Assembly (NCBI GenBank): GCA_021234155.1
Contig: JAJEKV010000096.1
Coordinates: forward strand, 1,372,010-1,436,009
Length of the DNA: 64,000 bases
Reading direction: 5' to 3'
Source: Isoetes taiwanensis
Taxonomy: Eukaryota > Streptophyta > Lycopodiopsida > Isoetales > Isoetaceae
The position numbers and the translations under genes are program-made. This document shows, in pieces, positions 3,296-32,527 of the stretch (the stretch's first letter is position 1; every line of letters begins with the position of its first letter). The notes beneath the pieces are model-generated. The model had not been told where the DNA came from. It did no database searches and saw only the letters and a list, made by a program, of their open reading frames with translations.

Positions 3296-4224
3296 GATTA
3301 GCATTCCACATGAAGTTTCACCAAACATGAAGAGAATCAACACACTCTTTCTTTTTATCTTGATCTTGCCTTTAAACTTTCAACGCAAAAGATTGGCACA
3401 TATCAGTTGTGGCACATATCATAGCCTGACAGCTTCTTCTGAAAATGCATAAAATAATGCCACAATACAGTTTCCTGAAAAAATATACTCATCTAAGATT
3501 ATCAAAATCCAGCTTCATGCAATGCATTAAAAGATTACCGAAACGAAGCTTCATTCTTTCGATATCTGCAATACAAAACTAGGCTACAGTACCACATAAA
3601 GTTTCAAAAAATGGATTGGCACTTAGAAAGAAATCACATACAAGAAAAAAACTCAAAGCAAGACCATCCTTGTCGTTTTCATTGAGACAAGCAACCCACA
3701 TTAGAGGAGGTTGTATTTAAAAATTGCAACCTTGGATATTTTCCGAACCTATAGGCTTGGAATTTAGCACCCAACCTGGTTATGCCATGTAGGTATGGGT
3801 ACGGTACCTGTTAGGTAGCCTCGTTTCTGTTTCGAAAAATGGCGGTCTACTGCTGTGTCATGAGGTTCTGCCTCGGTCTACTGTCATGAGGCCGGAGTAG
3901 CTTCGTCGGTAGTATCTGAGGCCGGATGTCAACAAAAAAAAAAAATAAGAGGCCTCGACATTCATATCAACATCAGTTCTGTTGCTGATGCTTGCTACCT
4001 CATCCGACCAGCATTGTGTACCAGGTAAATAGATCTTTATCCCTCCATTCACATCGGAGATAGATCTTTATCCCTCCATTCACATCAGAGAGGCAAATTA
4101 AACAAGAGCCTAGCGTTTTTGCAAGAAATAAATCTAAGAATGTCAATTTCAATTTATTACTGTTTCAATCTATTTCAATTTCTTACTGTTATCCGACCTG
4201 TTCCTTGCATTGCATTTGCACCAG
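3296..4224. other. intergenic; AT-rich, no gene recognised
   Basis: This is probably the promoter side of the minus-strand KxDL gene, because the start codon at 3295 faces it. Nothing diagnostic is visible apart from a two-copy tandem repeat at 4029-4090. Confidence 0.45.
4029..4090. repeat. 31-bp tandem duplication, 2 copies
   Basis: The unit containing TCTTTATCCCTCCATTCACA occurs at 4029-4059 and again at 4060-4090 with one or two changes. Confidence 0.85.
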
Positions 4225-4325
4225 AGCAACCTATTCAGCATCTAGGTGTAAGTGGGCATGTACCCCTATCGGATGATGATGGATCTGAGGATGACAAATT
4301 AGAGGAGGAAATACAACCAAATCAG
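4225..4325 (+). CDS. candidate internal exon, acidic peptide
   Basis: An open stretch lies between a plausible acceptor (TTTGCACCAG, ending 4224) and a donor (AATCAG|GTTTG). It encodes about 33 residues, including the acidic run SDDDGSEDDKLEEE. It has no recognisable domain. It might be an upstream exon of the plus-strand gene at 8933-11744, with the retroposon and minus-strand genes lying in a long intron, but nothing in the sequence proves that link. A chance acidic ORF cannot be excluded. Confidence 0.25.
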
Positions 4326-4641
4326 GTTTGATCTATGCTTTGGCAATCTAGTTACTGTTCAAGATTACACTAAAGTCTCTTTCTATTTAAAATCCATTAT
4401 GCTGGATCTAGTTCTACTGCAGGTTACAGTAATGTTTTACATAGCTTATAATTCTGAATCTGCTGCCATGCACCTTTGGGAAAATGTGCTTAAAGAATCA
4501 TACGTAGGCCTTTTAGACCCAAGGCACCCATCATGACAGTTTCCACTGCATATAAGCTGCCTGCATAGAACTGTGCATTATGATATCCACAGTAATCTAG
4601 ATCTGATACCCCATGCATCAATCTGTTAAACACCAATATAT

Positions 4642-6432
4642 ATATATATATTTTTTTTTTTTGAGGGTAAGATTTTTTTGATTAATATAAAAACAAGGTA
4701 CACGACCTTCTTGTGGGCTCCACAATAGGCCAGATAGGAAGTATACAATGCTCTTGGTCACCAGATAGGAAGAATTGCAATAAAAACTACTCGCAGCCAT
4801 CAAACTGGAAAACTACCCTAAGATCACGTCCATGTACTATGGTCAAGGTTCTCAACCTCTTCTTCATCCCTGCAAAATGAGTTCAACAGTTTTGAATACT
4901 ACAGGAGAAAGCCAATCGCAATTCCATGGAACTTTCCCAGAGAAGCCTCCAGTAAGATGCTGCAGCCCCGCAGACTCATGGCAGCCCCGTCATGACAAAT
5001 AGGAGTTGCAATAAACAAAATATCTGTTTCAATAGTATCTGCCTCCTGAAGCACACCCCCGAAAGATTTGAAGGCATTAACATTTAAACAGTATATGTGT
5101 TGCAGCTACAAGAGACACAGGTCTCCCGTCCTGTATATCCTGCTTTACCAATCTGACCTGTACGGATCACCATGTCATCCTCTCTACCTGGGATAGAGAA
5201 GGGGAAAAAACCCATAACACGCAAGACCCATAACCCAAGCATGGCACCAAAAATACTGCAATGATCCAGAAAAGTAAGATCCAAGGGAAGTCTCTTGACA
5301 CCCTAGAGGCAATGCCACCATCCTCTCCACCTCCTAAAGTGCTAGACGGCAGAATCAGGCAGTGGGATGCTTCTTCCCGCGCGTTAACTAGGCCAGAGTC
5401 TCTATACTTGCATAATGGTACTAGAAGGAGAATCCTAATCTGTTCCAATGTGTACTACGAGTAGGATCTCACCATCTTCCCATTAAGCAGGTGCATACCA
5501 AGCCTCCCCAAAGGGTGGTCCACAATCTCCATGCCTCTTCCCGCCTTCTACTTGAGCTTTGCCTCCATAATACCCTAGACTTCTTCCGTCAAATCTAATC
5601 TTTTTTCCCATAGCCTCTCCTAGGAGCCACACCTCCTCCTAGCTGGGATAGGAGTGGGCGACATGAGAAAACTAGTCATCCAACTGCGGCTCTCACCCTA
5701 TACATAGAAATCTTCACAGCAGAAACTGAAACCAAAACTGTACAGCCCCGTGTATCATAGAATATGGGCCCATGGAAGAATCATTCTCTCATGTCTCTAA
5801 AACTGGATGAAATCTCAGTTATCAAATAGTGCACAAATAAATCTTACCGAATGAAGAGTACCAGCGCCAAGATTAACCATAGAGTCCATGCTGCAGTGAG
5901 TGCAGCAGATTTTGCTGGGCTGCAGTGAGTGCACCCATCCCTAGCCCGCTGCAATGAGTGCAGCCGTACCTGGCATAGCTACAATGTGCAACAGTGCAAA
6001 ATACAAAGAGAAAGCAACGCTGACAAGCTCACACACCGGGAAGATTAAAATGTGGCATACCATAAGACCTTCGGGCTGAGATACTCCAGTGCAGCAACAG
6101 AGCAAGAAACCGTCTTACTGTTGCAAAGTGGCTTTCCCTATTGATCTAGCCACCGAAGAAGCAAGGAGGTCGCTCTAATAACAAGCCCTTGCACAAACAA
6201 CTCCTCTCCAGAAGCTAAGGCGAGCTTGGATGAAGGTATCATGTGCTCAGGACTGTATCTTCTGATCCAGGCTACCTTTCCTGATCTCCAGTAAGATCAA
6301 ACCGGGAAAAACCAGTGATCCCTTGATCACTCTTCCAGTCACCTCTACGAGCTTGAAGGATCTGCAAGAGATGGGGCGGCCGCCTGCCGCCGCCCTAACC
6401 GCGACCTAACCCTAGCGCCATCCTCCGGTTCC
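4642..6432 (-). mobile_element. poly(A)-tailed retroposon (non-LTR type), 1.8 kb, with TSD
   Basis: The insert is bounded by a 13-bp direct repeat, AACACCAATATAT, at 4629-4641 and 6433-6445. On the plus strand it begins with a (TA)n/T-run, the complement of a 3' poly(A) tail, so the element reads on the minus strand. Its 5' end is GC-rich (a GCGGCCGC site and ATGGCGCTAGGG near 6400-6430). No intact ORF longer than about 95 residues exists and no endonuclease, reverse transcriptase or DUF4283 motif is visible. It is therefore a degenerate LINE derivative or a non-autonomous retroposon. Three short hairpin-like units related to GCTGCAGTGAGTGCAGC lie at about 5889-5965. The target duplication and tail are seen directly; mobilisation by LINE machinery is inferred. 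Confidence 0.75.
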
Positions 6433-6573
6433 AACACCAATATATTGAGCATGTGCTGATAGTATTTCCTCTGCCTATTGAACTTATGCTGATAATATTG
6501 CTGCTGTCTATTAATTTTCAGTCTGGCTGTTAGTTTTAATTACATAAAAAGATCTCTCCCCAGCATACTGGAT

Positions 6574-7148
6574 CTAGTTTACTGCATAGTACAATAGCAA
6601 TCTATATGCTAAGGCAGATATAGCAGCACATGCATCAAGCATGGCTAAATAGGTGACCCTATTAGGTTGTATGCCTTCAAGCTGCATTTCTTTAAACAAT
6701 GTAAATACCTGCATTTCTGTAAATAAAACTCTGGCTTCTTCAAGACTACCATATTGAAAGTAGGCTGCTAGCATTTCATTCCAAGATACCATATCCCTAT
6801 TAGGCATTTTGTCAAATACATTCCTAGCTCCTTGCAGATTTTGACAACGAGCATAAGCAGAAATCATGAAATTCCAGGAAAACACATTGGGCTCCTGTAT
6901 GCCATGGAAAACTGCACAGGCATCCTTCAAAGCACCACACTTGCCATACATCTCTATAAGAAAATTTGCCAAGAATCTGTCTTTTCCATACCCATTTCTA
7001 ACTATCTGGTTATGAAGCTTGTTACCTTCTAATAAAGCCTTCTCGTTACCATAGCGCTGCAAGAGAGGTACATAATCTCGATATTCTAAGCCAGTATAGC
7101 CTGTGCTGTAACTGGTAAAATTCCTTGCATCTTTTCTTCTGACTGCCT
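6574..7148 (-). pseudogene. PPR (PLS-class) protein fragment
   Basis: The reading frame is open from a TAG near 7148 down to 6574 but has no ATG at its head. It encodes typical PLS-class pentatricopeptide motifs: LLEGNKLHNQIVRNGYGKD, then FLIEMYGKCGALKDACAVF, then FSWNFMISAYARC, then FDKMPNRDMVSWNEMLAAY. After about four motifs the repeat phase breaks: an internal deletion joins LFTEMQ to VFTLFKEMQ, and the end (YRLLLYYAVN) is not PPR-like. Intact members of the family have 400-1000 residues and act in organelles, in RNA editing or processing. The opening block resembles the first repeats of such a protein, so this is a 5' piece of a broken gene. Confidence 0.75.
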
Positions 7149-7528
7149 AAAACCTCATAATCTTGTTGATACCGCTAGGCAACTCCTAATGCCCCATCAC
7201 CATGTTTAAAGTAGCATCCTTGAATTTCCTTGAACCACATCCAATCTCCTTATAAACATGACCTATTTTTGTATTGATAGCCCCCATGGATTTTTACCTC
7301 CCCATGACGACGTTGACGACATAATGGATGCCCCTGAAACATCAATTGTCCAGCCAAGTTTGGTTATAATTCCCTGGTCAAAGAGAACAACCTGTCTTCT
7401 TCAAAACACGTATCAATCCTCAACATATAACAAGTGCCACAATTTGACTAAGCCAGCTGCTCTTTAGATAAATTCATAGACAAGGTGAAGAGGACTGAGA
7501 AATAAAAGTCAAGACAACAAACATCTAT

Positions 7529-8652
7529 TTATATACAAGTTAGAATTAGTGAAATTAATACAGAACTTGCGTACTTTGCAACAGTTTTTTGATTATCGAC
7601 TATTGTGTCATTCCAGACTGCAAAATACGGCATCTGTCTTGTGAAACTCGTTCTGCCATTCAAGTTTTGAAATGGTTGAGGTAGTTGTGATCCATTACCA
7701 GGAATAGACAGCAATTGCTGTTGATTTCCTACATAAGAGAAACTCCTACCATCTTGACATTCAGGTCTGGATCCATCTTCCATGAAGGGCTTGGCTAGTG
7801 CCACCTCTGAGCTTCCAGTGAGTGGACGTGAAGGCAATCCATCCTCAGTCACATCATTACCATCCTGTTCAGAAGGATATAAATTTGATCCTATCAAATT
7901 CTGCAGCATCATTGGCATAGTTTTTTTATTGCACTCCAGTTGATCCTGAACAGAATAATGCTTTTCATGGCCAGCATAACTACTGCTCGTGCCATCATTA
8001 ATATCTCTACCTTGACCTTTAAGTAGATCCCCACTTTGATTATTTGAAACACTATCTTTCCTCCTGGCAATGTCTCCCATTAGAAGACTGGGGCTAGAGC
8101 ATATTTTCTTCAGATTGTATCTGCTTATGTCAAAGTTAGTCACTGCATTTACTCCTCTAAATTTGATAGCAGCAATGTCATAAGCCTCTGCAGCTTCTTC
8201 TTGAGTACCTGAAGAGCAGAAGGCTTAGTTATAGTGATGTTTAGCATATTTTTGAAAGTGCATCTATCTTACTAACTGTTCCCAAGTACAAATCTTTGTT
8301 CCCAGCAACTCTGCCAATCCTAGCATGCCAGCGCCCTTGCTGGCGATGCCTAAAGGATTTTAAACAGTATCAGGAACACCCACTTAGACCAGAACAAACG
8401 GAAATATAGGCCTAAAAACTAAGAAGAGGGATAGCAAAAACCTAGTCACTCCTCGGTACATTGAAGCACCCCTTGAAAATCCACTGCTTTTCCTATCATA
8501 TCATAGCAATAGATGCTCAGTTTTAAGATCTCTTGAAGAGCATATTGGCCCCGATAGAGTACGGGATCTTCTACTGACCTTCTTAGAGATGCCACGTATT
8601 CTTGCCTGGTCATATTCTTCATTTCTTCAAGCTCTAGCTGATAATAAATTAC
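7529..8652 (-). CDS. AP2/AINTEGUMENTA-like transcription factor, 3' part only
   Basis: Four exons splice in frame: complement(7529..8208, 8273..8349, 8442..8492, 8579..8652), 882 nt, 293 residues. They encode the AP2 linker ([18 protein letters not shown], then [17 protein letters not shown]) and the second AP2 domain ([20 protein letters not shown], then [20 protein letters not shown], then [16 protein letters not shown]). A serine-, glutamine- and asparagine-rich tail follows, ending near MPYFAVWND. The intron after SLRR and those inside the second AP2 domain match the layout I know from the ANT/PLT group. The first AP2 domain and N-terminus are absent: the 280 bases upstream hold nothing like them, and beyond that lies the plus-strand gene at 8933-11744. 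ANT-type factors bind DNA and control meristem and organ growth. The piece is well kept, so either the missing exons lie beyond a very long intron or this is a 5'-truncated copy. Confidence 0.8.
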
Positions 8653-8932
8653 CTGCAAAAACTACATAGTCATTTGCTGAATGACCAAGGAAAACAGATA
8701 CCAAGAATAAGACTGGCAGTCTAAACCTTCAAACACAAACTTCAGCGGTAGCAAGGATTTTTAATCTATACCATCATGCAAAACTCCAGAAAACTAAAAG
8801 CACGATGATTCTATCAGATTACTATGCAAGACAAGCCATGCTAAGGATCTTTCTAGATTTAATTTATGTTGCAAGGATCTGAGGCAAAGACTCTAAGTCA
8901 TAAACTTATAAAAAACCATGATTTGTTTTGCA

Positions 8933-11744
8933 GGAATTGATGCTACCATGCCTCGTAATACAAATTTGAGGGTGCTACACTTGCAAATTGAGCCTGAACG
9001 CCTTCCATTGAAGAATATAACAACAGAAGAAATAAGTCGCTTGCGAGGTGACAAACACTTGGATATTTGTTGCCGAGGAAAATTGTATCCGCCCGACCCG
9101 TTCTCTCATCAACCACCAAAATTTGAGAACATTGTAGAGGCTTTAAACTTCATTTCAGATGGTTCTAAGGGGCTTCTTGGATATGTGCTCCACTTTTGGC
9201 AGCATATTTAGAACCAACAACAAGAGATACATAACAAACAACAAGAAATTTTCAGGAAACACCACAAAATCTTCATGCAACAACAAGAAATCCATAGGCA
9301 ACAAGAGCAAATGCATAGACAACAAGAGGAAATGCACAGGCAGGTGGCTTCATGGCAGATCAAGCTTTCAGTCAAACAAGAAGAAATCGAGGCACTTCAA
9401 AATGAGCTTAAGGGGTTTAAAGAGCAGCGAAGAAAACAGACCTTATCAGACATTAATAGTCTTGTGGCTGGAGGTAGAGCATTTAGAAAGAGGATGAAGA
9501 TGGTCCAAGATATACTTCATCCTGGTGATTCCTCAATGATAGAGGCTCAAAAACCTGACCACATGATTCAATTGTTCCATAATTACTTTAATGAGGACAT
9601 CTTGAAATTGATGCTAGAGCATGACTCCTCTTTCAAACTGATGTTGTTGAATCGGGTAGCTGCGGTAGAAGCTGAGCAAAAAGAAAAGGATGCTCATCCT
9701 AGCCAAGATGTTCAAGAAGCATGAAGGTGGCATTAGCCGAAGAGCTTATGAATTGCTTTTCTAGTCCTTAAGAGAAGGCCATCCATTGATGAGCAAAACA
9801 TTCATTCCTTGTCCTTGGCGAGTACGTGTGTCACGAGCATCAAGCACTGAGAAAATTCGGGCTCTTCTTGGAGATTTTAAAGCATACAAAAATAGCTATC
9901 CAGAGAAGAAACTTACACTTAACAAAAGCAATAACTTGTTTGTCAATTTACAGAAATTACTTGAGGTATTTTACATATTATCTTAACTAATACTAAGGCT
10001 TTCTTAATTTCATTTATGCATTTTCACAGGTCATTGTCCATTTTTATAAGCTTGAGCCAGGTGTGATAAGTCTGTTGTTGAAAATGGATGAGATGGAGCT
10101 CATTAAGGGGCAGAAGATAGAGAGGATGTCTATCCAACTTCTTCACGATAATATTACACAATCTGAATTTGACCTTTGGTGAGTCAAATTTTAGTGAATT
10201 TGACCTTTGATGACTTAGTAAATTCTAGTGCATCAAGTACCTCATTAGTATCTGCCTTTGCATGCGCTCCTTGATTAAGAAATGGAATTTTTTTTTAAAG
10301 GTGGCTAGCAGCTTTTGAAATTCCAGCTGAAAATTATTTCAATTTGCGCTGGGTGCTCGAACAAACAGAAATTCCATCTGTCATCAATGAACAAATTCGA
10401 GGAGAGCCACTAATAGTTGATGGTGTTGGAACATTCAAGATTGATTGGCATTTTTCTTCTGATCTTAAAACAGCAAAAGTACGAACATATTTTAAATGCC
10501 AAGTAAATAATTTGCTCATTATGAAATGCATTTTGTAGGTATTTTATGGTTTTGCTGAAGGTGTCAGTGCAAGAGCTCCTTGCCCTTTTTGTATGGTCTC
10601 GACGAAGGATTCTGGTTGGTTTTCCGTACGGCAAACAGAACAAGCACCAACTCGTACATCACAAAATGCCATAATCAATATTCCTTTGAGCCGGTTCCAT
10701 CCTTGCATGCTTCATGCATTCATTCGTATTGTTGACAAGCTGATTAACCTTTCCGTGTTGTTTTGCTGGAATAAAAGACCCCAAGCTGCTCGTGACACAA
10801 GCTTGCGTAATATAGAACAAGTTCTTTCTGCTGCAGGATTACATAATGGCAAACAGAATCTTCTTATTCTTAAGTGTGCCATTTTAAACTATGAATATTC
10901 TTATTCTTTAGTGTGCCATTTATTCTTTAGGTGAAGCGAAGATAACGAAGGATGAGAAGCGGTCCTCTGATAAGACAGATGTTCCAAAATCTATGAGTCT
11001 TGGAGGAGCAAAAGCACGGCATTTCTTGAGTGAAGACGCTCAAAAGGCCATAGGTAACCCGGATATTAAACTTTAGGGGGTTAAGGGCTAAGGGATAATT
11101 GAGCCTAACATAAAATCTATAACATGTATACAGGGAGATTAAGAACTCCAGGTCAATGGTCTTTTGGTCAACAACTAGTGGATGCTGAGCGTGACCTTAC
11201 AAGAGGAGGTATGGCAGCTGTGCAGAAGAAAAATGTTTGGACAAGCTTTGAAAAAGTATATGAGATGATGATGGATGAGAACTTGTCTCGAGATAGAGCC
11301 TTGGAATTTCAAAATGCTGTCAACAATTTTATACATGCTTTTAACAAAGCTCATCCAACATCATCAGCTACTCACTACATGGTACTATGCTATGTAAGAA
11401 AGCCATTATACATTTTAAACATATTGTAACCATTTTTGTTTACCTTACAGCACATATTATCTGCTCACTTGTCCTGGTTTATACAAGAATATGGCAGCTT
11501 ATCAAAGTTCAGTGCAGAAGGGATGGAGAAATCACACAAATTATTAAAAACAATTTATCAGCGCAGCACTCAACACGGGGGTTGTACTAAGAAATGGAGT
11601 CCGTTAGTTCAGGCCTTTGAAGGGTGTTATAAACAAATGCTAAGTAAAACGAGCAAGCGTATTCGTGATTCTCGTATATCCCGAGCAGCTCGAGTAGTTA
11701 ATGCTCGAGTAGTTAATGCAACTGATCACGTGCAAAGAATGTAG
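8933..11744 (+). CDS. uncharacterised multi-exon protein, transposase-like
   Basis: Supported segments are 8933-9724, 9765-9965, 10030-10178, 10301-10478, 10539 to about 10850, about 10933-11053, 11134-11381 and 11451-11744. Most junctions are GT-AG and keep frame, for roughly 750 residues. The order is: an N-terminal block (LRVLHLQIEPERLPLKNI); a Gln/Glu/His-rich coiled coil; a block FIPCPWRVRVSRASSTEKIR; a block WLAAFEIPAENYFNLRWVL; IDWHFSSDLK followed by a zinc-type APCPFC; an SRFHPCMLHAFIRIVDKLI block; and a C-terminal block with HLSWFIQEYGSLSKFSAEGM and a basic end. The D-L-K, CPxC and LHxxxRI order recalls uncharacterised RNase H-fold transposase-like proteins of many eukaryotes. That is recollection, not an alignment. 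A TAG at 9209-9211 interrupts the first segment in frame. The gap 9725-9764 is too short for a normal intron, and the junction near 10850-10933 is uncertain. No terminal repeats were found. Confidence 0.6.
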
Positions 11745-11991
11745 TGAAGAACTTATAGGATCGAGCAGGAAATCAGTGCTCTTTGAAAAGGATTATGAAA
11801 CTAAAAAACATCAAACAGACTATTTGCGTATCAATCAAATAATTGTAGGATTTGTTATAAACAGAGGCAAGATCTGCTGTAAACAGTTATAGAAGAATTG
11901 ATATGTAGTCTTTCAATTCAAATTCATATTATTCTTTCCCGTGTCGAGTATTCATGTAACACTCTTAAATGCATATTATTCATGAATGCAT

Positions 11992-12918
11992 TCATGCATT
12001 CATATTATCCGATGCAAAAAGTTTGAAACTCTCACACTTCGCATACATGCTAGTAAGGGCAGTCTGTACAGTTATATCTAAATCAAGTGTAAAATGCAAG
12101 ATGGAACTATGAATCATTCTTCCCTCGTGTAGGCTAGAACAGGCATTTAGAGTTCCTATCATAGGAAACATGACCTTATTCAGTTTAAAGCCTGCTTCTT
12201 GGATTTTCTGAAATTGATACATATGTTTTCTAGGAATTCCATGGTGCACATCTGATTTAGTCATGCAGATGCCCTTTCTAGCGATGTTTGTATCAAATAG
12301 TTGAGCAATATCTCCTGATATCCCACATTTGTTATACATGTGTACAAGTGCAGCACCCAGATCATCATCAATCGCGAACCCATATCTCAAAACGAGAGAA
12401 TGGACCAACCTTCCCTCTGCAAAAAATGCCGGATTGCTACATGCTTTTATAATAGTCAGAACAACAATTTTATCTATTTTAAAACCTCCCAATTGCATCT
12501 GCACAAAGAGGTCAAGAGCCTTTTGGCCATTGCCATGCTCAACATAAGCTACAATTATAGCAGGCCATGAGAAAATATTTTGTTTGACCATTGTTTCAAA
12601 TACCGTCCAAGAATTTTCTGGAACACCACATTTGCCATACATTTCTAATACAAGGTTCTGCAAAAACATGGAAGATCCTACTCCACTTCTTAATAAACAA
12701 GCATGGAATAGCTTACCTTGATGAAATGCCTTGGCATTACCGCAAGCACGCAAGATAGCTGCATAAGTGGGCGTATCCATGCGTATTACATTTTGCTGTT
12801 GTAGATGATGGATCGCCTCTTTTAATTGTCCTTGTTCACACAACCTTACAAGGACTTGCAAATTTTCTGGCTGCCTTGTTACAAGGGAGGGGATGCTAGA
12901 ATTGCTCATTTTCTCCAT
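11992..12918 (-). pseudogene. PPR (PLS-class) gene, truncated
   Basis: An ATG at 12916-12918 opens a 308-residue frame. After a short leader it has recognisable PPR motifs: TYAAILRACGNAKAFHQGKLFHACLL, LQNLVLEMYGKCG, FSWPAIIVAYVEHGNGQKALDLFVQMQ, AALVHMYNKCG and TALTSMYAKC. Around residues 200-235 the pattern decays, with no SWN..I.AY core. The frame stops after about nine motifs, with no E or DYW domain, short of the family's usual 500-900 residues. It may be a degenerate copy. It lies on the same strand as the fragment at 6574-7148, but both have N-terminal-type opening repeats, so they are two broken genes and not halves of one. Organelle RNA binding is the family role. Confidence 0.7.
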
Positions 12919-13082
12919 GCCAGCATTTGTGCCTCCTGAAACTTCCTTATCATTCGCAATTGTGGACTCTAGATCGAGAATGTTCTACCTACATGGTAAA
13001 GTATAGACAATGACATTGTGGAAGTAATAAAAAATTATCTTTTTTGATGAGAAATGTGCACAAGACATCAAGGTCTGTGGGA

Positions 13083-13597
13083 TGTTAAAATTATGTGTCA
13101 TGTGATATTCGAGCATATAAGGGGATTAGTGACCACATCTTGGCTCCCCTAGGCTAATGAGAATTCATACAAGCATTCATGAGAAGCAGTGGCAGTGAAT
13201 GCAAGAAAAAAACATAGAAGTCGAAAAGTGGTGGGCAGGTACTACCCAGACGTTGCTACGGCCGCCAGAAAACGCGTGATACCCCCTGCCCGCCACTTAG
13301 GGTTTTGACTGGTCAAATGGGTCAAAGTCAACGACTTTGACAGCTGGAACTTAAGGACAGCAGGGCATCCTATTATTTAGGTAAGTTGGAAAACTTTCTA
13401 TAGGAAGGGGCATGCACGATTTGACATGTGGATATATCCAGGTTGATAAGAAAATATATATATGAATGAATGTGATATAGAATATAAGGAGCTGAGTGCA
13501 GATACAGGTGTGTGTGTGCAGTTTTAGGAGCGGGTGGGTTTGAAGGAGACAGAGACTTGGCATACTTGGGTTCAAACCCCAAGCTCTGATTCTAACA
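13083..13597 (+). repeat. 5' LTR of copia element 1
   Basis: It pairs with 17674-18176 at high identity. The main length difference is an extra 14 bases (ATTAGTGACCACAT) near 13125. A hairpin CTTGGG/CCCAAG with the B-box-like GGTTCAAACC in its loop lies at about 13566-13583, just before the LTR end. Confidence 0.93.
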
Positions 13598-13598
13598 T

Positions 13599-13610
13599 TG
13601 GTATCAGAGC
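13599..13610 (+). other. primer binding site (initiator tRNA-Met)
   Basis: TGGTATCAGAGC sits one base after the 5' LTR. It is the standard plant copia primer site, complementary to the 3' end of initiator tRNA-Met. Confidence 0.93.
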
Positions 13611-14867
13611 TAACTAGTTCCTGCCCTGTGATAATGACAACCAGATTCGGGGCAAATCTATTGAACTCTATTGAAGTCTTTAAAGGAGATGGAGGATTTC
13701 AAATCTGGAAGGTGGGTATTAGAGGTGTGCTGGAGTTTGAAAAGTTGTGGTATTTGTTTGATGGTAGTCCAGTAAACGGTGCATTTGATAAAGCACTATG
13801 AACAAAAAAGTTCTTCACAAATAGATGTGCTAGAAAAACAGTTAAGGAAGATGAAATTGTTTGAGAAGGATAACCTGACTGACTTTTTGGAGAGATTTGA
13901 TTCCATTATTGCAGATCTTGAGGGAGCTGGAAATATCTTGAATGAACAGTATCAAATACTTGCTTTGGCAAGAGCAGTATCTCATAACAGTCACTTGGCA
14001 ACTTTAATGTAGCCACTTCCAAGGAGCATGCTATCAGAATGATACACACAGAGTTTGAACAGTCTACTATTACACAGGAGGAAGCTGATCAATCCTCAGA
14101 GGTCTTGTATACAGGTAAGACTAAAAGAGGTGGTTTTGTAAGAAGGAAAGTAGGACCTTGTTATGCATGCAATCAATTTGGTCACCTAAAGAGTGAATGT
14201 CCAAACAATAGTGAGAAGGAATTTAGATGTTTCAATTGTGAAGGCAAAGGGCATTTTGCTTTTGATTGCCCAAGTCCTAAAAAGGGAAGAGGTCGAGGGG
14301 GATTCTCTGAAACTTATAGAGGTGGCAGAGGCAGGGGAAAGCAAGATAGTAGTGAAGGTGAACTTGAGAATGATACCTTGGAGGTAAGGAAGAATTTAGC
14401 TTGTAATGTTTCAGAGTTTCCAAGGAAAAGCAATAAACAATTTGTTGTTATAGATTCAGGAGCAGAAAAAAGTGTGATGTGTGACTTGCATATGCTTAAG
14501 GATTGGGAAAAGAAGGAAGGACATGTGCAACTTGGTGATGGGGGTTTGAAGAAAATAGAAGATACCGGAGTTTTAGAGTTGTTTGACTTAAATGGCAAAA
14601 CTGTAAAATTGAGAGATGTTTTGTGTGTGCCCTGTCTTGTTAGAAATCTCATATCCGTATGCCAGCTTGTGGATTTGGGATATAAAGTACTGTTTGAACA
14701 GATCCGTTGTAAAGTATTTCTTAATGGTGAATTAAAATTTATTGGCAAAAGAGTTGGTAATCTCTTTGGATTGGATATGGAGCATCTTCATGAAATTAAC
14801 CTTGTGGAATATTCAGATGTGAAAATATGGCATAACAGATTATGTCATGTAAATGTTTAGAACAATT
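13610..14867 (+). pseudogene. copia 1 gag and protease region, broken
   Basis: The Gag N-terminus starts near 13622 (FGANLLNSIEVFKGDGGFQIW), then stops and shifts frame at about 13800. A Gag middle part follows at 13779-14012 with a stop, and then an open frame of 273 residues at 14039-14860. That frame holds two CCHC zinc knuckles (CYACNQFGHLKSEC, CFNCEGKGHFAFDC), a Gly/Arg-rich stretch, the aspartic protease motif VIDSGAEKSVMC and the start of the pre-integrase zinc region (KIWHNRLCHVN). Part of Gag appears deleted near 13800. The stops make it non-functional. Confidence 0.85.
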
Positions 14868-17613
14868 AAAAGACTTGGAGAAAAGGGATTAATATCTGCC
14901 AAGGTACAAAATGAAAAGTTCTTATGTGGGGGCTGTCAACTTGGAAAGCAATCAAGATTTCCATTTAAAAGGTCACACAAAAGAGCAAAGGGCATTTTGG
15001 ATTTGGTGCACACAGATTTATGTGGTCCTATAAATGTTACTAGTTTGAGTGAGATATTTCATGAGCTTTATTGATAATTTCAGCAGAAAAACCAAGTGTT
15101 ATATTTTGAAAACAAAAGACCAAGCTTGTGATGCTTTGAAGTTATTTACTGCTGAAACCGAGCTAGAAACTGGAAGGAAGATAAAGTGCATAAGGTCGAT
15201 TGAGGAGGAGGCTAATATATCTCCTCGATGAATTTAAAGCTTTTTGTGCAAATAGGGGAATCAGGAGGCAATTGACATGCAGATACTCACCACAACAAAA
15301 TGGAGTTGCGAGAAAGGAAAAATAGAACATTGCTTGATGTTTGTGAGGTCCATGTTGAAGTACTCGCTTACTTACAAATTATTTATGGGATGAAGTGTGA
15401 AGACGGTACTACATTCAAAACTTGTTACCTTCATCAAGTATTAAAGGTGCAATTCCAGAAATGCTTTGGTCCGTAAGTCACCTTCTTATGATAGATTAAA
15501 AGCATATGGGTGTTTATGCTTTGTACATGTGCCCCAAGAACTAAGGAAAAAGTTGGATGATAGAGCATACATATCTTATCTAGTAGGGTATGATTCTAAC
15601 TCGAAAGCATTCAGATTATATGATCCTGCTAGAAGAAAAATTATAGTGAGTAGAGATGTGGTCTTCAATGAAAATGAATTTTATAGGAAAATTCCCAAGA
15701 TAAATAATGAAGATCCATGTGAAAGTGAAAGGAAAGATAGTATTGAAGAAGCAAATCAGTCAATAAGTGAAGAGGAGAAAATTCAAGGATTGAAGCAGGT
15801 AGATTTGAGTGACTCTGATAATGAGTCAGAAATGATTCCAAGTAATGTTGTTGAGCCAGAAGTGGAATCAAGTCTTTGAGCAAGAGATTGAACACCAAGA
15901 GGCAAGAGAGGGTGATAAACCGATAGACCAAAAAGAAAACCCGATTTAACGTAAGCTCAAATGTTGGCGTAAAGAAGCAAAACATAATTTAGAGTCTCAT
16001 GGTAGAACCGAACTTGGGAAAAGTAAAAGACTTAGATCTCGTGTAGGAGAAATTAATCTTGATTTGACATTTTGATACTTGAAACAGACAAGATTCCACA
16101 AAATTATATGGAGACAGTTCAAGATATGAATGGAAAGAACTGGAAATGTGCTATGCAAGAAGAAATGAGAGCATTCAAAAGAACCAACACTTATACAGTG
16201 GTAGATATTCCTTCTGATAAGAATATAGTTGGAAGTAAGTGGATCTATAGAATAAAACCAGGAGTAGACAAAAATACTAAGAAATTCAAAGCCGGACTTG
16301 TTGCACGGGGGGCTTTACACGTAAAAAAAAAAAAAAAAGGGAAGATTTTGATGAAACATTCTCACCATTGGTAAAGATAAATAGTTTGAGAATGTTATTA
16401 GCTATTGCTAATGCTTGTGACCTTGAAATCCATCATATGGATGTAAGTACAGCATTCTTGAATGCTAAATTAGAGGAGGAAATTTATTTAAGACCTGCAC
16501 CTGGGTTTGAAGAGGACAAAGGAAAAATTTGGAAGTTGAATAGAGCAGTCTATGGTCTTAAACAGTCTCCTAGGGAATGGTATAAATGTATGGATGGATA
16601 TCTTGTAGAACAAGGTTTTGAGAAGCTCAATTATGATGGTAATATCTATAGATTCAAAATGGGAGATGCCTGGTGCATTATTGCTTTATATGTTGATGAC
16701 AATATTATGATATCAAAGGGAACTCAAGTACTAAATCATTGCAAAGATATCTTAAAGAAACGATTCCAAATGAGTGATCTTGGAGAATTAAAGAGGTTTC
16801 TGGGCATAGATGTTTACAGGGACAGAAATCACAAGATATTAGCTTTGAGTCAACAAGGGCATATTCAAAACATGTTGAAGAAATTTCATATGGAAGATTG
16901 CAATATGGCATATACTCCTATGGTTCCGGGTCACAGAATTTCTGCAGATATGAGCCCAAAGACAGAAACAGAAAGCAAACAAATGGAGAAAATACCTTAC
17001 AGAAGTTTGATTGGTTGTTTGTCCTATGTAGCCAATTGTACTAGGCCTGACATTGCATTTGCAGTTAATATTCTCAGTAGGTACAATGACAAGGCTGGTA
17101 AAGGACACCGGAATGCAAAAAAAGGATTCTCAAATACTTGAAAGGTACAATGCATTTTGGTATAGTATTTAATGGAACCAACTTGCAATTGCGGGCTTAT
17201 TGTGATGCCGATTGGGAGGAGATTTAGATAAACGAAAATCAACTTGTGGATTTTATTAGGTGGAGCCCCAGCTTGCTTGGAAGTGCAAGAAGCAAAGCAA
17301 AGATTGCTTTATCTAGTCTTTGCCGAAAGTACAACTTCAAAGAGCCACATTGACTAAGGAACTTATTTGGGAAAGAAGGCTTATGGCAGAATTTGGATTT
17401 GCTCAAAGAGGACCAACAATCATTTATTGTGATAATACTAGTTGTATTGCTATGACAAAAAACCCAATTCTGCATGAAAGATCAAAACATATTGATATGG
17501 AGGTTCATTTTATCAGGGATATGGTAAAGAAGGATCAGGTGCATTTAACTTATGTTAGTTCACAAGATCAACGAAAGCGGATATACTTGCAAAAGCCTTA
17601 CCATTGTCCGTGA
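14853..17613 (+). pseudogene. copia 1 integrase, RT and RNase H region, broken
   Basis: The integrase start (CGGCQLGKQSRFPF, LVHTDLCGP) is at 14853-15074. The catalytic core is shredded between 15050 and 15470, and the integrase C-terminal part is at 15466-15879. RT begins near 16072 (FKRTNTYTVVDIP, GSKWIYRIK). It is broken by a run of 15 A at 16323-16337 and resumes at 16368 with HHMDVSTAFLNAKLEEEIY, VYGLKQSPREWY and the active-site ALYVDDNIM. RNase H survives in pieces at about 17150-17613 (IIYCDNTSCIAM, ERSKHIDMEVHFIRD). Multiple frame changes rule out a product. Confidence 0.88.
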
Positions 17614-17664
17614 TTTGTGGAATTAAGAAGTTTGCTACACTGTGACAACAGGGAATATCACATG

Positions 17665-17673
17665 AAGGGGGAA
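17665..17673 (+). other. polypurine tract of copia element 1
   Basis: AAGGGGGAA lies directly upstream of the 3' LTR and is the expected primer for plus-strand synthesis. Confidence 0.85.
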
Positions 17674-18176
17674 TGTTAAAATTATGTGTCATGTGATATT
17701 CGAGCATATAAGGGGCTTGGCTCCCCTAGGCTAATGAGGATTCATACAAGCATTCATGAGAAGCAGTGGCAGTGAATGCAAGAAAAAAACATAGAAGTCG
17801 AAAAGTGGTGGGCGGGTACTACCCGGACGCTGCTACTACGCCCGAAAAAAGCGTGATACCCCCCCTCGCCACCACTTAGGGTTTTGATCAAACAAACGGG
17901 TCAAAGTCAACAACTTTGACAGCTGGAACTTAAGGACAGCAGGGCATCCTATTATTTAGGTAAGTTGGAAAACTTTCTATAGGAAGGGGCATGCACGATT
18001 TGACATGTGGATATATCCAGGTTGATAAGAATATATATATATGAATGAATGTGATATAGAATATAAGGAGCTGAGTGCAGATACAGGTGTGTGTGTGCAG
18101 TTTTAGGAGCGGGTGGGTTTGAAGGAGACAGAGACTTGGCATACTTGGGTTCAAACCCCAAGCTCTGATTCTAACA
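17674..18176 (+). repeat. 3' LTR of copia element 1
   Basis: It starts TGTTAAAATT and ends CTAACA, followed by the target duplication TGGGA. It includes the same hairpin and B-box-like sequence near its end as the 5' copy. Confidence 0.93.
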
Positions 18177-18181
18177 TGGGA

Positions 18182-19819
18182 CCCAAACCATGAACTGTAA
18201 TTCTGAAAATTCTGAATTATAGTTGACATGCATTCTGAATTATAATTCTGAACATGCATGAAGCTAATTGACATAGAAAAATATCTGCAAAACAACCATG
18301 AGGTGAGAGCTAGTCGGTCCCTTAATGGATGTAAAACAAACATTTGGGCGAGCCGACACAGCAGTAAATGTATTTAAATGTAAACTAAAGAAGTAGGCAG
18401 AAGCAAATGCAATTATGCTGTAATAATGATTTTTCTATTCTTTGATAGAGTCAACAGAATGTTAAAGGAAGAGCAATATTACTTGGAGTGATAGATTTTC
18501 CAGAGATTAATGCACAAGTATAGAATCAGCCATTACGAGAATCGGCCATTAAGACCATTCTTTTTAGAAAAACTTTTATATAAACAGCAGAGTTAATATC
18601 CAATGCCAATGCATTTTTCTGTACTTAAATGCAGCATAATGGAGCATGCAGCCAGTAAAATACTGTTGTAACAACGCAATCACTGTTCTTTTGACAAAGC
18701 CAGCATGCATGTGTAGCAAGAATAAGCATAATGTAGACGAAAATCCATACGAGAGAAATACACATGTTCACTTTTTCAGCATTATTGTGCTCATAGTATG
18801 CACAAGCACGTGTAAGTGCATACAAATGTTAATGAGCCCAAAAAGTTAAAATATACTTGGTATACAACCATGCAAAACTATTCAGTCAGGGTATCTTTAT
18901 TCATCCATTTAATGGCATTAGGATGAGCAGAATGCAAAAACAGATAGAAGCATACATTATGAGAAATATGCTGATATAGAAGATGCAGATCATTATCCTT
19001 TAGACCAATGATTCCAGAACACAAACATATGGACTGGAAGTTCAAGAGATGAAAAAGAATAAGAATAATTCTGGTAGGAGAAATTAGCATTGGTAAGGGA
19101 AGTCCAAAATGCATAATCATGCATAACGTTGGTGGATATGAAAACCAAAGGATTCAAAATACATGATAAAACATCGTCAGCATGCTTATTTCCATTATTC
19201 TATGGTGTGTAGTAAAGCAAATAGACTGTCACAAACAATGCAAAATTCTGAAAGTACTTATGTCAAGAGCTGTACTTATGAAAGACAACAGAAACATAAT
19301 ATAGAACCCTAGATACACCTCAAAATCTTTTTGGCACTTCAAAAATTTCATTAAGTGACATGGAACAAGTTGCAGATATTTAAAAGAGAGTAAAGTCAGG
19401 TGATTTTCATGTATGAACTGCATGCCCTCTCCCTGTACATGATTGTGAAACATGTAACAGACTAGTTACACTTGAGAACAACTGCCTCCAAACCAGAACA
19501 ACATCAGATCTTAAACTTCCTCAAAGTTTTGCATTTTCGATCCGAGCTTTTAAGCACATAGAAGCATTATGTCCCATGAGCTGAAATGAGTGGCAGCAGG
19601 TCTATACTTTACTTTTCTTGCCCAAGACTTATAAACATACTTGCAACATCTTCATGAATTTTCTTCAATGCAGCTAAGACTTTAAAAGTTCCATCAAAAA
19701 CACTAAAATACAGCCTGCACCGAGATAAAATCTAAGGCTCATAAAATTTCTTTCCTTATACCATTTAAAAACGTGAGCTATAGGCCCTCCAAATACAGCA
19801 TAACCCCATAAAGAGGCAT
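18182..19819. other. no gene recognised
   Basis: AT-rich sequence with short unconvincing ORFs on both strands. A small repeat (CTGAATTATA with nearby variants) occurs near 18200-18255. No RNA gene or element end is visible. Confidence 0.45.
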
Positions 19820-20147
19820 CTAGGTGAGAATGTCTATGTTATTCAACTCATGACATTTTACTGTCAATTCTCTACGGCCCCGAATGACTCGGCCATTGAG
19901 ACAAAAGAAAAATACCAATGAAGGTTCATACTCTAGAAGCAAAGATCTAACATCTCGAAGAACAACATCTGTTGGAAGCTCAAAGTGCCGATATGGACTT
20001 CCATTCTTGCACACTGTCAAAGATGTGACATTCACATGTTCATCGTCATCTTGCTCAAGAGGATGCCACTGATAATTAGTACTAGCTGCTCGGCGAAACC
20101 TCCTAAATTCAAATTTCAAAGAGAGTTTTTGTCTTGAAAAGTAATAC
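19820..20147 (-). CDS. candidate terminal exon, ubiquitin-fold-like, unknown
   Basis: The frame is open from a plausible acceptor (TCTTTTCACAG|GTATTAC at 20148) to a stop at 19820, about 108 residues. It runs from a basic N-terminal part (KLSLKFEFRRFRRAAS) through an acidic turn (EQDDDEH) to a region whose pattern suggests a beta-grasp fold: a strand VNVTSLTVCKNG, a helix DVVLRDVRSLLLEYEP, a strand LVFFFCLNGRVIRG and a terminal NNIDIL. This resembles ubiquitin-like domains only in spacing. I do not recognise the family. It may join the ORFs at 20762 and 22346 in one minus-strand gene, which is unproven. Confidence 0.35.
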
Positions 20148-20179
20148 CTGTGAAAAGATGGAAGTATGGATATGGTCAA

Positions 20180-20761
20180 TTTAGAAATAGTCTAAATCAA
20201 ATGCCTTTACAATACACACGATTAATAGACCAAGTAAAACGTACCTATAAACAAGGTGCAAAGCACTGTGGATTGCCCCCAAAATGCTATTATGAATAAA
20301 GCTTTATAAATGTATCTTCATTATTTAAATTATTTAATTATTTTGAAAGTAGTATAGGAACATGGATGAATCATTTTGTTGCATATGTCTTTGTTTTTGC
20401 AAGGCGAAGAGGTAAGTGGCCAATATCACGAAGATGTTGTTTTTATGTTCTGATCCCGTGTTGACAATTCATGTGTATTTTTTTTGTTTTGTTAAGGGTG
20501 ATGTGTAACTTTTTTTTTTTTTATGTTTAGATGTAGATTTTGAACATTATTTATTAGCATGTGTTTGTGTTGAATGGTTAAGTCCTTTGAGGTGTAGGGT
20601 TCGAGTTAGTGTTGAATAACATGAGTAACATATGGGATTTGAATTTTTAAAATCACGTAAAAGTAAATCATTTATATAAAAGTGTCTAGTTTTGCTTTAA
20701 AAGCAAAGATTTCTACAATTATTAAAACAGACAGAAAGCTCATAGACAGAGTGTTGATTGT
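20180..20761. other. no gene recognised; AT-rich
   Basis: AT-rich sequence with a T/G-rich stretch at about 20460-20560. It could be an intron if the minus-strand ORFs on either side belong together. Confidence 0.35.
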
Positions 20762-21052
20762 CTAGTTGTTTTCGTACTCGATGATTACGTTTGCACAATT
20801 GACTTTGAATATCCCTGTTGGATTTTGTTGAGATACTCGTTCACGGAATTTTAGTGGCGACGTCATCATTTCATTATACAATTCTCCATCGTCCATTCCA
20901 TATGCTTTGTCAAGGAGTTCATTTCGGAAGAGTGCTTTGTATGCTTTGCCTGTATCGCTGTAGATGGAACCAGCAAGTGAATCGAAATACGACAACTCAA
21001 ATGTTGATGTAGCGTGCTCAAACCACCCCTGAAAGGTCGATGCAGGGTTCAC
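20762..21052 (-). CDS. candidate exon or small ORF, unknown
   Basis: The 96-residue frame has ordinary globular composition (GWFEHATSTFELSYFDSLAG, AYGMDDGELYNEMM, IFKVNCANVIIEYE) and ends at 20762. The ATG near 21052 follows TGTTGTGGAG, which could equally be a splice acceptor. No family is recognised. It is listed because its composition is more protein-like than nearby chance ORFs and it shares the strand of 19820-20147 and 22346-23320. Confidence 0.3.
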   Translation of the reverse strand: MNPASTFQGWFEHATSTFELSYFDSLAGSIYSDTGKAYKALFRNELLDKAYGMDDGELYNEMMTSPLKFRERVSQQNPTGIFKVNCANVIIEYENN

Positions 21053-22345
21053 TCCACAACATTATTTATTTAAGCTCCCTTAGGTATGGTTTCAAGGTTT
21101 TAATATTAAAATTCCACTTCCATAGCTAACTAATTTATTGAGACAAGTAATGCAGAGTCTCATAATTACGTGCTTACAGCTTTAAAATCTATAGGGTCTT
21201 ACGACCGCAAATGTCCGTAACCCTTGTCCACTGATCCCCAGACTAGGCCTCATCTCCGGGAACAAGCCTGTATAATCATCCTAGATACCGTTGATTTATT
21301 AGCTTCAAATTACGTAAATGTCTTAGTTAATACAACTAGTCATAGAAATTCTTACAACTTGTTATTACTCGCCCGCACGTCATGCTCGAATTTCCTCTGC
21401 TGGCTAATTCTTTCTTAAGCCCAGGCGCCACCCAATTCCTTCTATGATTACCTAACTTTATAATTTTCTTTTAACATGCCAACAATGAGTTCAAAGCAAC
21501 AAATTGACAAATCCAAACATAAACAACAAATAAAGACCACAACCCAAAAAAAGTTAAGAAAAGAAAACAGCAACACAGCAAGCAACGAAGATAGACATGT
21601 TTCGGCCTCTTTGGGCTCTGATTTTGGCATGGATTCACCATCTACCACTGACCCACCACCAAATCGACATGATCCAAGCCCAAATCGACTGATTCCGCTT
21701 ATTTTGAGGCATTTTGGGGCGCTTTGGATCGCTTGAGGAGCTCTTCAAACACTTGCCGAATAGCCATGCCAATCCTTAATTCCTTCAAAATAGGCCTTTA
21801 AACTCAATTTCGGCCCTCTCTAAGTAGTTTCAAAGATGTTCTAACTATGCCCAATCCACGCCATGAGACATGTGCTCAGTTTTTTTTTTTCCCTGATCAA
21901 TCCCATCTTGGTTTTTGTCGGATCCAATTCACATCCTCGAAACAAATCCAATCCTTCTTCCCGATGATCTTTCAAAAGCCCATCTTACAAATCCAATTAC
22001 CCAGATACAAAGCCTCTCAATCACAACTCTTAACAAAAGCATGTACAATCATGGCAGCCTATGCAAACCTCAATTGAATCATAAAAATTAGAATTCAAAC
22101 CCCACCTGAAAAGGAAGAACGATTTGATGCCGTTTATTCCAGCTCCCCGCCTCCAGATAGCCTCCTCCCAACTCCTCTGCAACTCAAATTCCTTCTGAGC
22201 TCCTCTCTTGCAACAATTCCTCACGTACCACCAAAAGCCCTCTTCTATAATTTTTTCTTTTTATAGTTTGGCTTATGTGGATTTACTTATGTGGATATAT
22301 GAACCCAAAGATAAATTCTAAAAAAAGGAATCTCTAGCCCAAAGG
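21053..22345. other. no gene recognised
   Basis: Short ORFs only. The stretch 21860-22250 is pyrimidine-rich and could be an intron or untranslated sequence of the minus-strand ORF upstream at 22346-23320. Confidence 0.35.
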
Positions 22346-23320
22346 TTAAAAAAACCAATAGTTTTTCACAAAAAAAATGAGTTTCCGATCGCCGGAAAAA
22401 TAATTTGGCGTCCAAAACACGGAAAACCTTAGCGTATATTCATACGCAAAAAAACCAAAAAGTTTTTCACCGCCGGAAATACAATCAGTAATGACGGGCG
22501 TCAGATTATCAGATATACCCCTGATATGCCAGAATATGCCAAAACCAACCCTCCCCCTAACGAATTGCCCCCTTAACAGGGGCAATCCAAAAAGCTTATC
22601 TTCCTGAACTCTACATTCAATCTCCTTAAATTCAAGTCCGTACTTTCTTATCTTCCAACCATGCAATAAGTCCAGCTTTGTGCATATGGCTGTCTTCTTT
22701 GTTTTTCTGTGACAGGAACTTCCAAATAAAGCTTCAAACATGTCGGGAATCAAAACCCATCCAAGTCTAACTGCAGTCCCTCCACTCTTCTTTAAGCTTG
22801 CATGAATGTCTTGCATGATCTTGGCTTTGAAGAACATAACTTGCTGCAAATTATTTCTAAGCTCTGTTGCAAGTGGTTGTTCTAACGGCCGTACTACACC
22901 ATATTGCTCTGAGTGTTTTGGCACGAGATACTCATGACTATAAAAGAAGATCATTTGCTGTCTGAGAGCTATTGATTTGCTACTTTCAAACATCCCTCTA
23001 TAGCTAATGTGGTAGGCTATAAATTTAGATGTGAAGCAATCAATGCTTTCCCATTCAAAAGCATCTGAAGGAAAAATAGAGTTTGGAAATCTACCATGCT
23101 GAACCTTTGTTGCCATATCTTTACTTTCATAGACATGTTGCACTAATGCTTCTATCTTTCCAGATTGATTTACTCTAAATGCCGTTACTCTACCTTTCCA
23201 ATGCAAGTGAATAATCTGTACTGCATTTGGGGGCTGCATTATAACCCAGTCACCTGTTGAAATTATCCCTATTCTCGTCCTAACAGAGTCAATTTCACCA
23301 ATTCCTTGTACTAGTGCCAT
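22346..23320 (-). CDS. 324-residue ORF, unknown function
   Basis: An ATG at 23318-23320 opens the longest minus-strand frame of this region. The first 240 residues look like a globular domain: TGDWVIMQPPNAVQIIHLHW, KGRVTAFRVNQSGKIEALV, WESIDCFTSKFIAYHISYRG. The end (from about residue 265) is Phe/Tyr-rich and coincides with a repeat of GTGAAAAACT followed by TTGGTTTTTTT, so the true coding end or a splice donor may lie earlier. GDWV followed by strands and a closing aromatic block is faintly like a BAH module, but I would not assign it. It may be a first exon of a gene reaching to 19820, or a transposon-related ORF. Confidence 0.45.
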   Translation of the reverse strand: MALVQGIGEIDSVRTRIGIISTGDWVIMQPPNAVQIIHLHWKGRVTAFRVNQSGKIEALVQHVYESKDMATKVQHGRFPNSIFPSDAFEWESIDCFTSKFIAYHISYRGMFESSKSIALRQQMIFFYSHEYLVPKHSEQYGVVRPLEQPLATELRNNLQQVMFFKAKIMQDIHASLKKSGGTAVRLGWVLIPDMFEALFGSSCHRKTKKTAICTKLDLLHGWKIRKYGLEFKEIECRVQEDKLFGLPLLRGQFVRGRVGFGIFWHIRGISDNLTPVITDCISGGEKLFGFFAYEYTLRFSVFWTPNYFSGDRKLIFFVKNYWFF

Positions 23321-24761
23321 TCCTGAAGATGCTTGCTATAAAATTCTTATAAAATTCCTGAAGATGCTTGCTATAAAATTCCTGAAGATTCTTAGACTAT
23401 AAAATCTGGTGATACTAATTCAAAGACATCAGGCTATCTAAATTGAATTTTATGGAACTACAATTGCATACCTTGCTGGTCCCGTAATCTCAGGGATTCA
23501 ATTCTCTAAAGATTAGCTATTAACAACAACTTCCGGCAATGAATTGACCGCTCCATATAAATCGGCAATGAATCGGCAATGAATCGACAACTTCCGGCGG
23601 GAGGGAAAAGCCATGGATCGACCACTGGATGGAAGGGCCTGGTTCACGCGGCAACGAAGTGGCCTGGTTCACGCAAGTTTCTATTGCTCCATATAATAAA
23701 TTACCAAACTTATTAACCCATACCTAATCCGAACCTAAAACCAAACCTGACCCTTCACCAAATTAAAAGGCCCATTTTTTAAGGGCCACCTCCTCTAATG
23801 ATCTAGAAAGAAAGAACTTTTGTAAGGTAAACACTGAACAAATATCGAGATACTGCCGATAAACCTGCAAAAACTACAAGATAAAACCTACAAGAGGTAA
23901 GCAAACTCAACAAAACTCTTACACCAAAACTCTGAACTTCCTTGTCTCAAAATCGATCAGTGAGGACGACCTAATGCAGAGCCGGATCTGCCATAGCCGA
24001 GTTGGGCCTGTTCTTTGCCAGAGGCACGACAGAGAATTTCTTGGGTTTTCTAATTTCTCTATCAGACGGCTCAAAATGATTTTAGGTGACGTGGCACGAC
24101 ACATGGCATAGCTAGAATCGCAGGAAAGTGAGGCAACCTGGTAAAAATTTTGAAGTACAAGAAAAGAAAAGAAAAATTTTGAACCACTTGCGAGCGATCT
24201 TAAATTTGGGAACTTCAGGGACTAACGGAGAAGCCTGCATGCGGACACATTGGCCGTAGTTATCACGGTTGCCGTAACTGAGCTCCGCCAGGGACGCCGC
24301 CGGCGGCGCCGCCAGGGGCTTGTCGCCATAGCCATCTGAATTGGCGCCTCCGTTCCTGAATCATCCTTTTCTTTCCGTCTTACTGTCTCCCGCGCCATTG
24401 GGCATGCTTTATTTCTCATATCACGAATTGGGTGCCGGATTTCTTCTGCTCTTACCGTGACCCACCTCCATAAGATCTGCCCTTAACCTCAAGCAGCTCG
24501 TTGATTTCTACCCAAATGATTTTATCTGTCGCGCATTAGGATTTTATGTCAAATTCCGCTCTGGGCTAGTTTTGGGGTTTTCTATCAAATTGGAAACAAT
24601 CATTTACTATGGAAAATGAGAACGCATATCGGAAAGGAAAACCTCGAATAGGTTATTTTAGGTAAATATTTGCTCTGGCTGGCCGGAATGGATGTTAGAA
24701 GATAAGAAATTTTGTTATGAGAGCATGTGAAACTCATTAGACAAATACTGGTTGATTAAAA
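23321..24761. other. intergenic; likely promoter side of the ubinuclein gene
   Basis: The left half is AT-rich with short direct repeats (ATGAATCGGCAATGAATCG and a doubled GCCTGGTTCACG near 23560-23670). A GC-rich patch (GCCGCCGGCGGCGCCGCC) lies at about 24295-24315. No TATA box is convincing. The position suggests the 5' region and untranslated leader of the gene that starts at 24762. Confidence 0.4.
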
Positions 24762-32207: not shown

Positions 32208-32527
32208 GAATAGGCCATTGCATTCATTTTCTACCGGATTTCCAAACCCTCCTCTTCTTCGCCCCCCCTCCGACCGCTATAGCCAACAGACCACAAGCTC
32301 TTCTACATTCTGCTGCTTCTGAAAGCTCCGGCGTTTGTGCTTGGAAAAGAAGGGCCCGGAAAAGGAAGGTTGTTCTTGAAGGTGGGCTTACTATAGTGGT
32401 CCGGCATTTGGGCCTGGCTACGTTGATTCAAAACAACGTCGTGTATCTGCAGAGGTCTGAACTATCTCCCTTTTCAGTACGTTTTTATACGTCTTGCAAC
32501 TAGAACTCTATTTTGTACTGAAAAGGG

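Follow-up and report, generated by a model that had tools for sequence, protein, structure and literature searches.

A dead copy of a probable transposase gene in the genome of Isoetes taiwanensis, from a DNA transposon family with a likely, though distant, place in the CMCT clade

The EnSpm/CACTA elements are characterized by CACTA ends, and the Pack-type CACTA and MULE elements contain fragments of host genes within their bounds. A further group, Lanisha, was proposed by authors who work on mosses. Together with Mirage, Chapaev, Transib, and RAG1, the EnSpm/CACTA elements make up the CMCT clade as understood here, which is defined in PMC12730594 by a C(2)C and an H(3-4)H motif located between the second D and the last E of the transposase. 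The same source attributes a target-site duplication of 2-5 bp to the CMCT elements, and CA..TG ends to most of the members, and cites Lanisha (Maumus, McDaniel, and Carey 2020, Repbase Reports) as a proposed CMCT lineage. The roles of the zinc and catalytic residues of RAG1 are described in PMC4914335. The relatives of RAG1 are best known from animals, and have also been recorded in fungi, algae, bacteria, and plants, including 39 potential Transib-like proteins in plants, with a mean identity of 26% among the RAG1L and Transib proteins (PMC9435367). Given these 39 proteins, a plant member of this group is not new as such.

The window analyzed here is a stretch of 64,000 nucleotides of the genome of Isoetes taiwanensis (contig JAJEKV010000096.1, positions 1,372,010 to 1,436,009), which includes a gene, at 8948-11744, that very probably encodes a transposase. 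This gene is best explained as a dead copy from a family of cut-and-paste DNA transposons, whose enzyme is most likely a distant relative within the CMCT clade. The final gene model consists of seven exons with approximately 773 codons, in which GT-AG introns join the open stretches:

8948..9965 (+), exon 1: N-terminus, seven-residue coiled-coil repeat, and start of the core, interrupted in the window copy by two amber stops and a shift of frame
10030..10178 (+), exon 2: candidate catalytic Asp 1 (KMDEMEL, 10087-10089), assigned by position
10301..10478 (+), exon 3: candidate catalytic Asp 2 (SSDLK, 10461-10463)
10539..10848 (+), exon 4: CPFC (10581-10592) and LHAFIRIVDKL (His at 10713-10715), with a GC donor in the window copy
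10931..11053 (+), exon 5
11134..11381 (+), exon 6
11451..11744 (+), exon 7: H-x4-H (11451-11453 and 11466-11468) and candidate catalytic Glu (11526-11528)

The original prediction, which recognized several GT-AG junctions that maintain a single long frame of approximately 750 residues, agrees with this model in its exons and length, but not in the integrity of the frame, which is interrupted in the window copy by two TAG codons and a frame change. The Gln-rich coiled coil that it described is present as a 21-bp tandem repeat with 6.1 copies (seven-residue units) at 9215-9342, as are the DLK/CPFC and LHAFIRIVDKL blocks, whose key residues do not vary among distant relatives. The GC content is 23-36% in the introns and 38-46% in the exons, based on the intron borders of an earlier drawing. 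In dinucleotide shuffles of nine open stretches, the probability of finding no stop in the respective frame ranged from 0.001 to 0.098, although the ends of these stretches were picked to be open, which means that they are not independent proofs, and one of the nine was drawn with an earlier donor. Homology with other genomic loci is a stronger proof of the reality of the gene than these odds. All of the 12 loci taken from elsewhere in the genome, picked for their long frames among 150 scored exon matches, contain relatives with 33-36% identity over about 330-510 residues, and the best E value per locus varies from 3e-69 to 7e-103.

The donor of intron 4 was placed at 10849, rather than 10876, based on the GT found there in five of the six other copies (the sixth has GA, and the window GC). 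The 529-aa protein, its pieces, the exon used as the genome query, and the codon counts for pN/pS all include up to nine residues derived from this intron. Intron 4 also contains a 37-bp tandem duplication at 10856-10929, and is longer and rich in repeats in the copies on contigs C1045 and C1018 (the other copies are likewise referred to here by their contigs).

The candidate residues D, D, C-x2-C, LHA, H-x4-H, and E are invariant in all nine aligned sequences, with D152, D246, C267-x2-C270, H480-x4-H485, and E505 in the numbering of L047, which places a C(2)C and an H(3-4)H between the second D and the last E, as in the definition of the CMCT clade. In the window protein, the second Asp is separated from the first Cys by 20 positions (20-21 in the family), the two Cys by 3, the two His by 5, and the second His from the Glu by 20, while the spacing in mouse RAG1 is D708-19-C727-3-C730 and H937-5-H942-20-E962. 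The second Asp and the Glu thus match RAG1 in their spacing, and the first Asp is assigned by position, given that the RAG1 stretch used for the comparison starts after D600. The Glu block shares the motif GS[IL]..[WF]..[EQ]G.E...K with RAG1 and Transib, in which the H-x4-H also lies 20 residues before the Glu and the C-x2-C about 20 after the second Asp. Among the differences, no RAG2-like gene was recognized in the element, which has a second, convergent open frame (see below) that matches no Pfam family. The residue pattern suggests that the two Asp and the Glu would hold the metal ions in a core of the RNase H type, in which a zinc-binding insert (C-x2-C and H-x4-H) would separate the second Asp from the Glu, with the coiled coil probably joining the subunits.

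No family in either Pfam or NCBIfam was matched above the cut-off by the transposase protein, and the family may be called unnamed, as predicted, in the libraries searched. The prediction of a transposase with a Cys/His insert between its acidic blocks finds support in the residue pattern and the family profile, but not in the structure. The AlphaFold models were uninformative (pLDDT 43.6), as was that of the last exon (68.7), for which the fold search reached E<=0.001 with none of its matches, and RAG1 did not occur in the best 50 of the 89 matches at E<=10.

The link with RAG1 was approached through a series of comparisons and their controls. When exons 6-7 of the window were compared with the PDB, 10 of the 11 matches were RAG1 or RAG1L, aligned at the H-H-E block, with a best E of 0.46, and the family profile placed RAG1 in the first 13 positions (14 of 17 matches, best E 0.017). 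The Pfam RAG1 family was matched by two of the nine members, with a best E of 0.036, below the cut-off, and was the only one of the 22 families listed to be matched by more than one member, while single members matched unrelated families at lower E values in some cases (DivIC 0.0045, UCH_1 0.0053, NAPRTase_C 0.011, and Zn_ribbon_PaaD 0.027). RAG1 came out ahead of 3,000 shuffled versions of its own sequence (E 0.00058), and its hhalign probability was 57, with a score of 42.6, compared with at most 27.6 in 30 shuffles. None of 5,000 shuffles scored as high as the real sequence against the matched 53-residue segment of RAG1, a segment that was chosen by the search itself, and an end-free alignment with the RAG1 core, which pairs D191, CPFC, H-H, and E with RAG1 residues, was equalled by two of 500 shuffles.

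This similarity is restricted to the H-H-E block, and the rest of the core cannot be aligned with significance. The half that extends from Asp1 to LHAF had no match with RAG1, with 1,743 of 2,000 shuffles being as good, and MAFFT did not pair Asp2 with D708. Exons 2-4 recovered a single, unrelated match when used as the query, and a part of these exons recovered none, while the top match of a 66-aa query from the last exon was an unrelated protein. A hand-reversed control query produced three unrelated matches (E 0.14-0.38), and the element's second open frame, described below, produced 19 matches, all of them spike glycoproteins (E 0.076-1), which shows that a cluster of homologous matches can arise by chance. 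Given these controls, the RAG1 matches of exons 6-7 of the window prove little by themselves. None of the similarities with RAG1 is significant when taken singly, and a distant relationship between this transposase and the CMCT enzymes is likely, rather than proven.

The gene belongs to a dispersed family. An exact 30-mer of the gene occurs seven times in the genome of the window (1.66 Gb), and the gene as DNA recovers 29 pieces on 13 contigs, with identities of 84-100% in all but a single weak piece, which has 69%. The ends of the element were located by aligning the window with stretches of approximately 27 kb that surround six other copies. The left end falls on a single base (3699) that is common to C1056, C1065, and C1075, and the right end on another (23800), common to C1035, C1075, C1018, and C1045, and both ends consist of the same 13-bp inverted repeat, CATTAGAGGAGGT, with flanks that differ between copies. 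In the window, the element and its ends are arranged as follows:

3699..23800 (+), whole element, window copy, nested insertions included: the outer homology of the other copies stops there
3699..3711 (+), left terminal inverted repeat CATTAGAGGAGGT: located by copy comparison, also at C1018, C1032, and C1081
23788..23800 (-), right terminal inverted repeat: located by copy comparison and a 32-bp right-end pattern

The left end is thus 5.2 kb upstream from the gene, and the right end 12 kb downstream from it. The element spans 20,102 bp in the window, and about 10 kb in C1075, which has both ends and is the most compact of the copies that do. The termini have the form 5'-CA..TG-3' (CATTAG..CTAATG), a hairpin can be folded just inside the 13-bp repeat at each end (3699-3750 and 23749-23800), with stems that differ and that were folded without a shuffle control, and TAGGTATGGGT is common to both ends, farther inward. 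No left end was recovered from the stretches analyzed around C1035, C1045, and C1030, and no right end from those around C1056 and C1032. The 32-bp right-end pattern, allowing for up to three mismatches, occurs at 13 places in the genome, and its reversed control at none. Right ends were also observed on C996, C1033, C1036, C952, and C907 (L033-L036 and L038), where the gene search listed no copy, and these may possibly be non-autonomous copies; C996 and C1033 have an identical flank at this end.

These ends contradict the original prediction in its claim that terminal repeats are absent, and lend no support to its suggestion that the ends may have been lost, given that they can still be recognized in several of the dispersed copies. 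The searches for terminal inverted repeats and duplications near the gene had found nothing above chance, because the true ends are distant, or outside the range searched on the left (6000-8930). The transposase would cut at the CA..TG ends, and would move the element.

The copy in the window is dead. In-frame TAG codons are found at 9209-9211 and 9762-9764, and the frame changes near 9723, in a stretch that is 5 nt shorter than in other copies. All four of the other copies that cover exon 1 (C1056, C1075, C1065, and C1045) lack both stops and have the additional 5 nt, which indicates that these features represent decay in the window copy, and not a missed intron. The possibility that the stops lie within unseen introns was rejected, with the candidate introns being exon-like in their GC content (41-44%), and read through in the other copies. 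The argument that clean splicing speaks against decay fails, because the window copy carries stops, a frameshift, and an altered donor. The splice sites are conserved in most copies. Counted in the register of the window, the seven copies compared, that of the window included, all have one or more stops, frameshifts, or missing parts. The pN/pS between copies varies from 0.32 to 1.69, and is below 1 in 18 of the 21 pairs, which are not independent of each other. It is 0.33 between the window and C1075 (Fisher p 6e-6), and the Fisher p lies between 0.012 and 6e-6 in four hand-picked pairs of the 21. This pattern fits an enzyme that was under selection while mobile, and then decayed.

These observations bear directly on the rival explanations. 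The low pN/pS ratios (0.33 for the window and C1075, and less than 1 in 18 of the 21 pairs) are what might be expected if a transposase had been domesticated as a host gene, one of the two readings originally proposed, although selection prior to death is also expected of an active transposase. Moreover, what was found is a dispersed family whose copies share terminal repeats, and not a single conserved gene free of element ends, and both the window copy and all six of the others compared are damaged or incomplete, which makes domestication highly improbable. That the open frames arose by chance, with no gene at all, might be suggested by the lack of a library match above the cut-off, but this has already been refuted by the 33-36% identity with all 12 loci and by the conserved splice sites, and its probability is close to nil.

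A more serious rival is a DNA transposon from outside the CMCT clade (KDZ or Kolobok, for example, or an undescribed group), in which the pattern of C and H residues would have arisen by convergence. The similarity with RAG1 is weak and limited to the H-H-E block, and none of the four contigs with both ends (the window, C1075, C1018, and C1065) shows a target-site duplication of at least 2 bp, both of which are compatible with this alternative. One flanking base agrees in three of these four pairs, with the pairing in C1065 being assumed across 28 kb, and the lack of a duplication may mean either that the family makes none, or that the old copies are recombinant. However, the C-C (3), H-H (5), and H-E (20) distances are the same as in RAG1, and the D-C distance is 20-21 as against 19, while the CA..TG ends are those of most CMCT members, according to PMC12730594. 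An origin outside the clade is unlikely on this balance, and distant membership of the CMCT clade is the preferred reading.

The element departs from the 2-5 bp target-site duplication reported for the CMCT clade, whose only member compared with it by sequence was RAG1. Its ends, CATTAG, differ from the CACACC-type signal of an algal RAG-like transposon (PMC9435367), and, beginning with CATTA, from the CACTA ends of EnSpm/CACTA. Lanisha, which is cited in PMC12730594, may be the same family. The Pack-type CACTA and MULE elements are alike in having host fragments inside their bounds, and different in their ends.

The element contains a second open frame, which runs from the right end toward the transposase, as well as nested insertions and host sequences:

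7760..8807 (-), stretch with AP2 exons: of the six copies compared, only C1056 shares it
13079..18177 (+), nested Copia-type LTR retrotransposon: LTRs at 13079-13598 and 17669-18177, 92.7% identical, with Pfam Pol_BBD and zf-CCHC
19801..20255 (-), second, convergent open frame, part: common to C1018, C1035, C1045, and C1075
20256..22588 (unstranded), nested insertion of 2.3 kb: missing from C1018, C1035, C1045, and C1075
22589..23335 (-), second, convergent open frame, rest: from copy comparison

The second frame is found in the window, C1018, C1035, C1045, and C1075, matches no Pfam family, and may encode an accessory protein; by impression only, its last exon resembles a small ubiquitin-like fold. 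Fragments of host genes (AP2 and phospholipase D) lie inside the bounds of some copies, where they were either captured or inserted. Four exons of an ANT-type AP2 gene are found at 8102-8643 (-), within the element (Pfam AP2, 6.4e-9), and a probe for the first AP2 repeat found no match anywhere in the 64 kb of the window. A piece of phospholipase D alpha is located near the right end in C1018 and C1045 (L015 and L018), with the C1018 fragment matching PDB 6kz8_A at E 1.3e-40, and part of this stretch recurs at C952 and C1036. A pectinesterase piece (Pfam 7e-19), also near the right end in C1018, may be captured or nested. Pieces of PPR genes at 6574-7146 and 11992-12984 (-), within the element, are absent from the six copies compared, and may be either captured or older or nested host sequence. 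The AP2, PPR, and phospholipase D alpha fragments would be consistent with the genome of a land plant.

Using one exon as the query, at least 1,051 first-look candidates were found in the genome, of which 150 were scored, all with E 7e-16 or better, and these counts are lower bounds, with two of the 150 overlapping at one C1045 copy. Twelve of the 150 belong to the same family (57-100% identity), and 138 are relatives at 36-56%, many of them in stop-free frames of up to 811 codons. This abundance raises the possibility, which can be put forward only tentatively, of a new, very abundant RAG1/Transib (CMCT) lineage in a land plant, with no target-site duplication, a second convergent gene, and the pickup of host exons, which may include AP2, phospholipase D alpha, and perhaps PPR and pectinesterase.

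No description of this family was found in the literature searched, which does record Transib-like proteins from plants, as well as Lanisha. The IMG/VR and GTDB contigs contained no close relatives, in scans that reach close relatives only, and the phage records had no match by tblastn. A plant genome with at least 150 matches to an exon of a RAG1-like transposase would provide material for the study of the deep history of this group of enzymes, and of the way in which plant transposons carry host exons. If the lack of a target duplication is real, the integration step would become testable.

Elsewhere in the window, a second Copia-type element was observed at 32525-37370, with 108-bp end repeats that are 98% identical. 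The search for RNA families recovered a single rRNA fragment, of the bacterial-type large subunit, at 61722-61905 (-), which is probably an organelle insertion.
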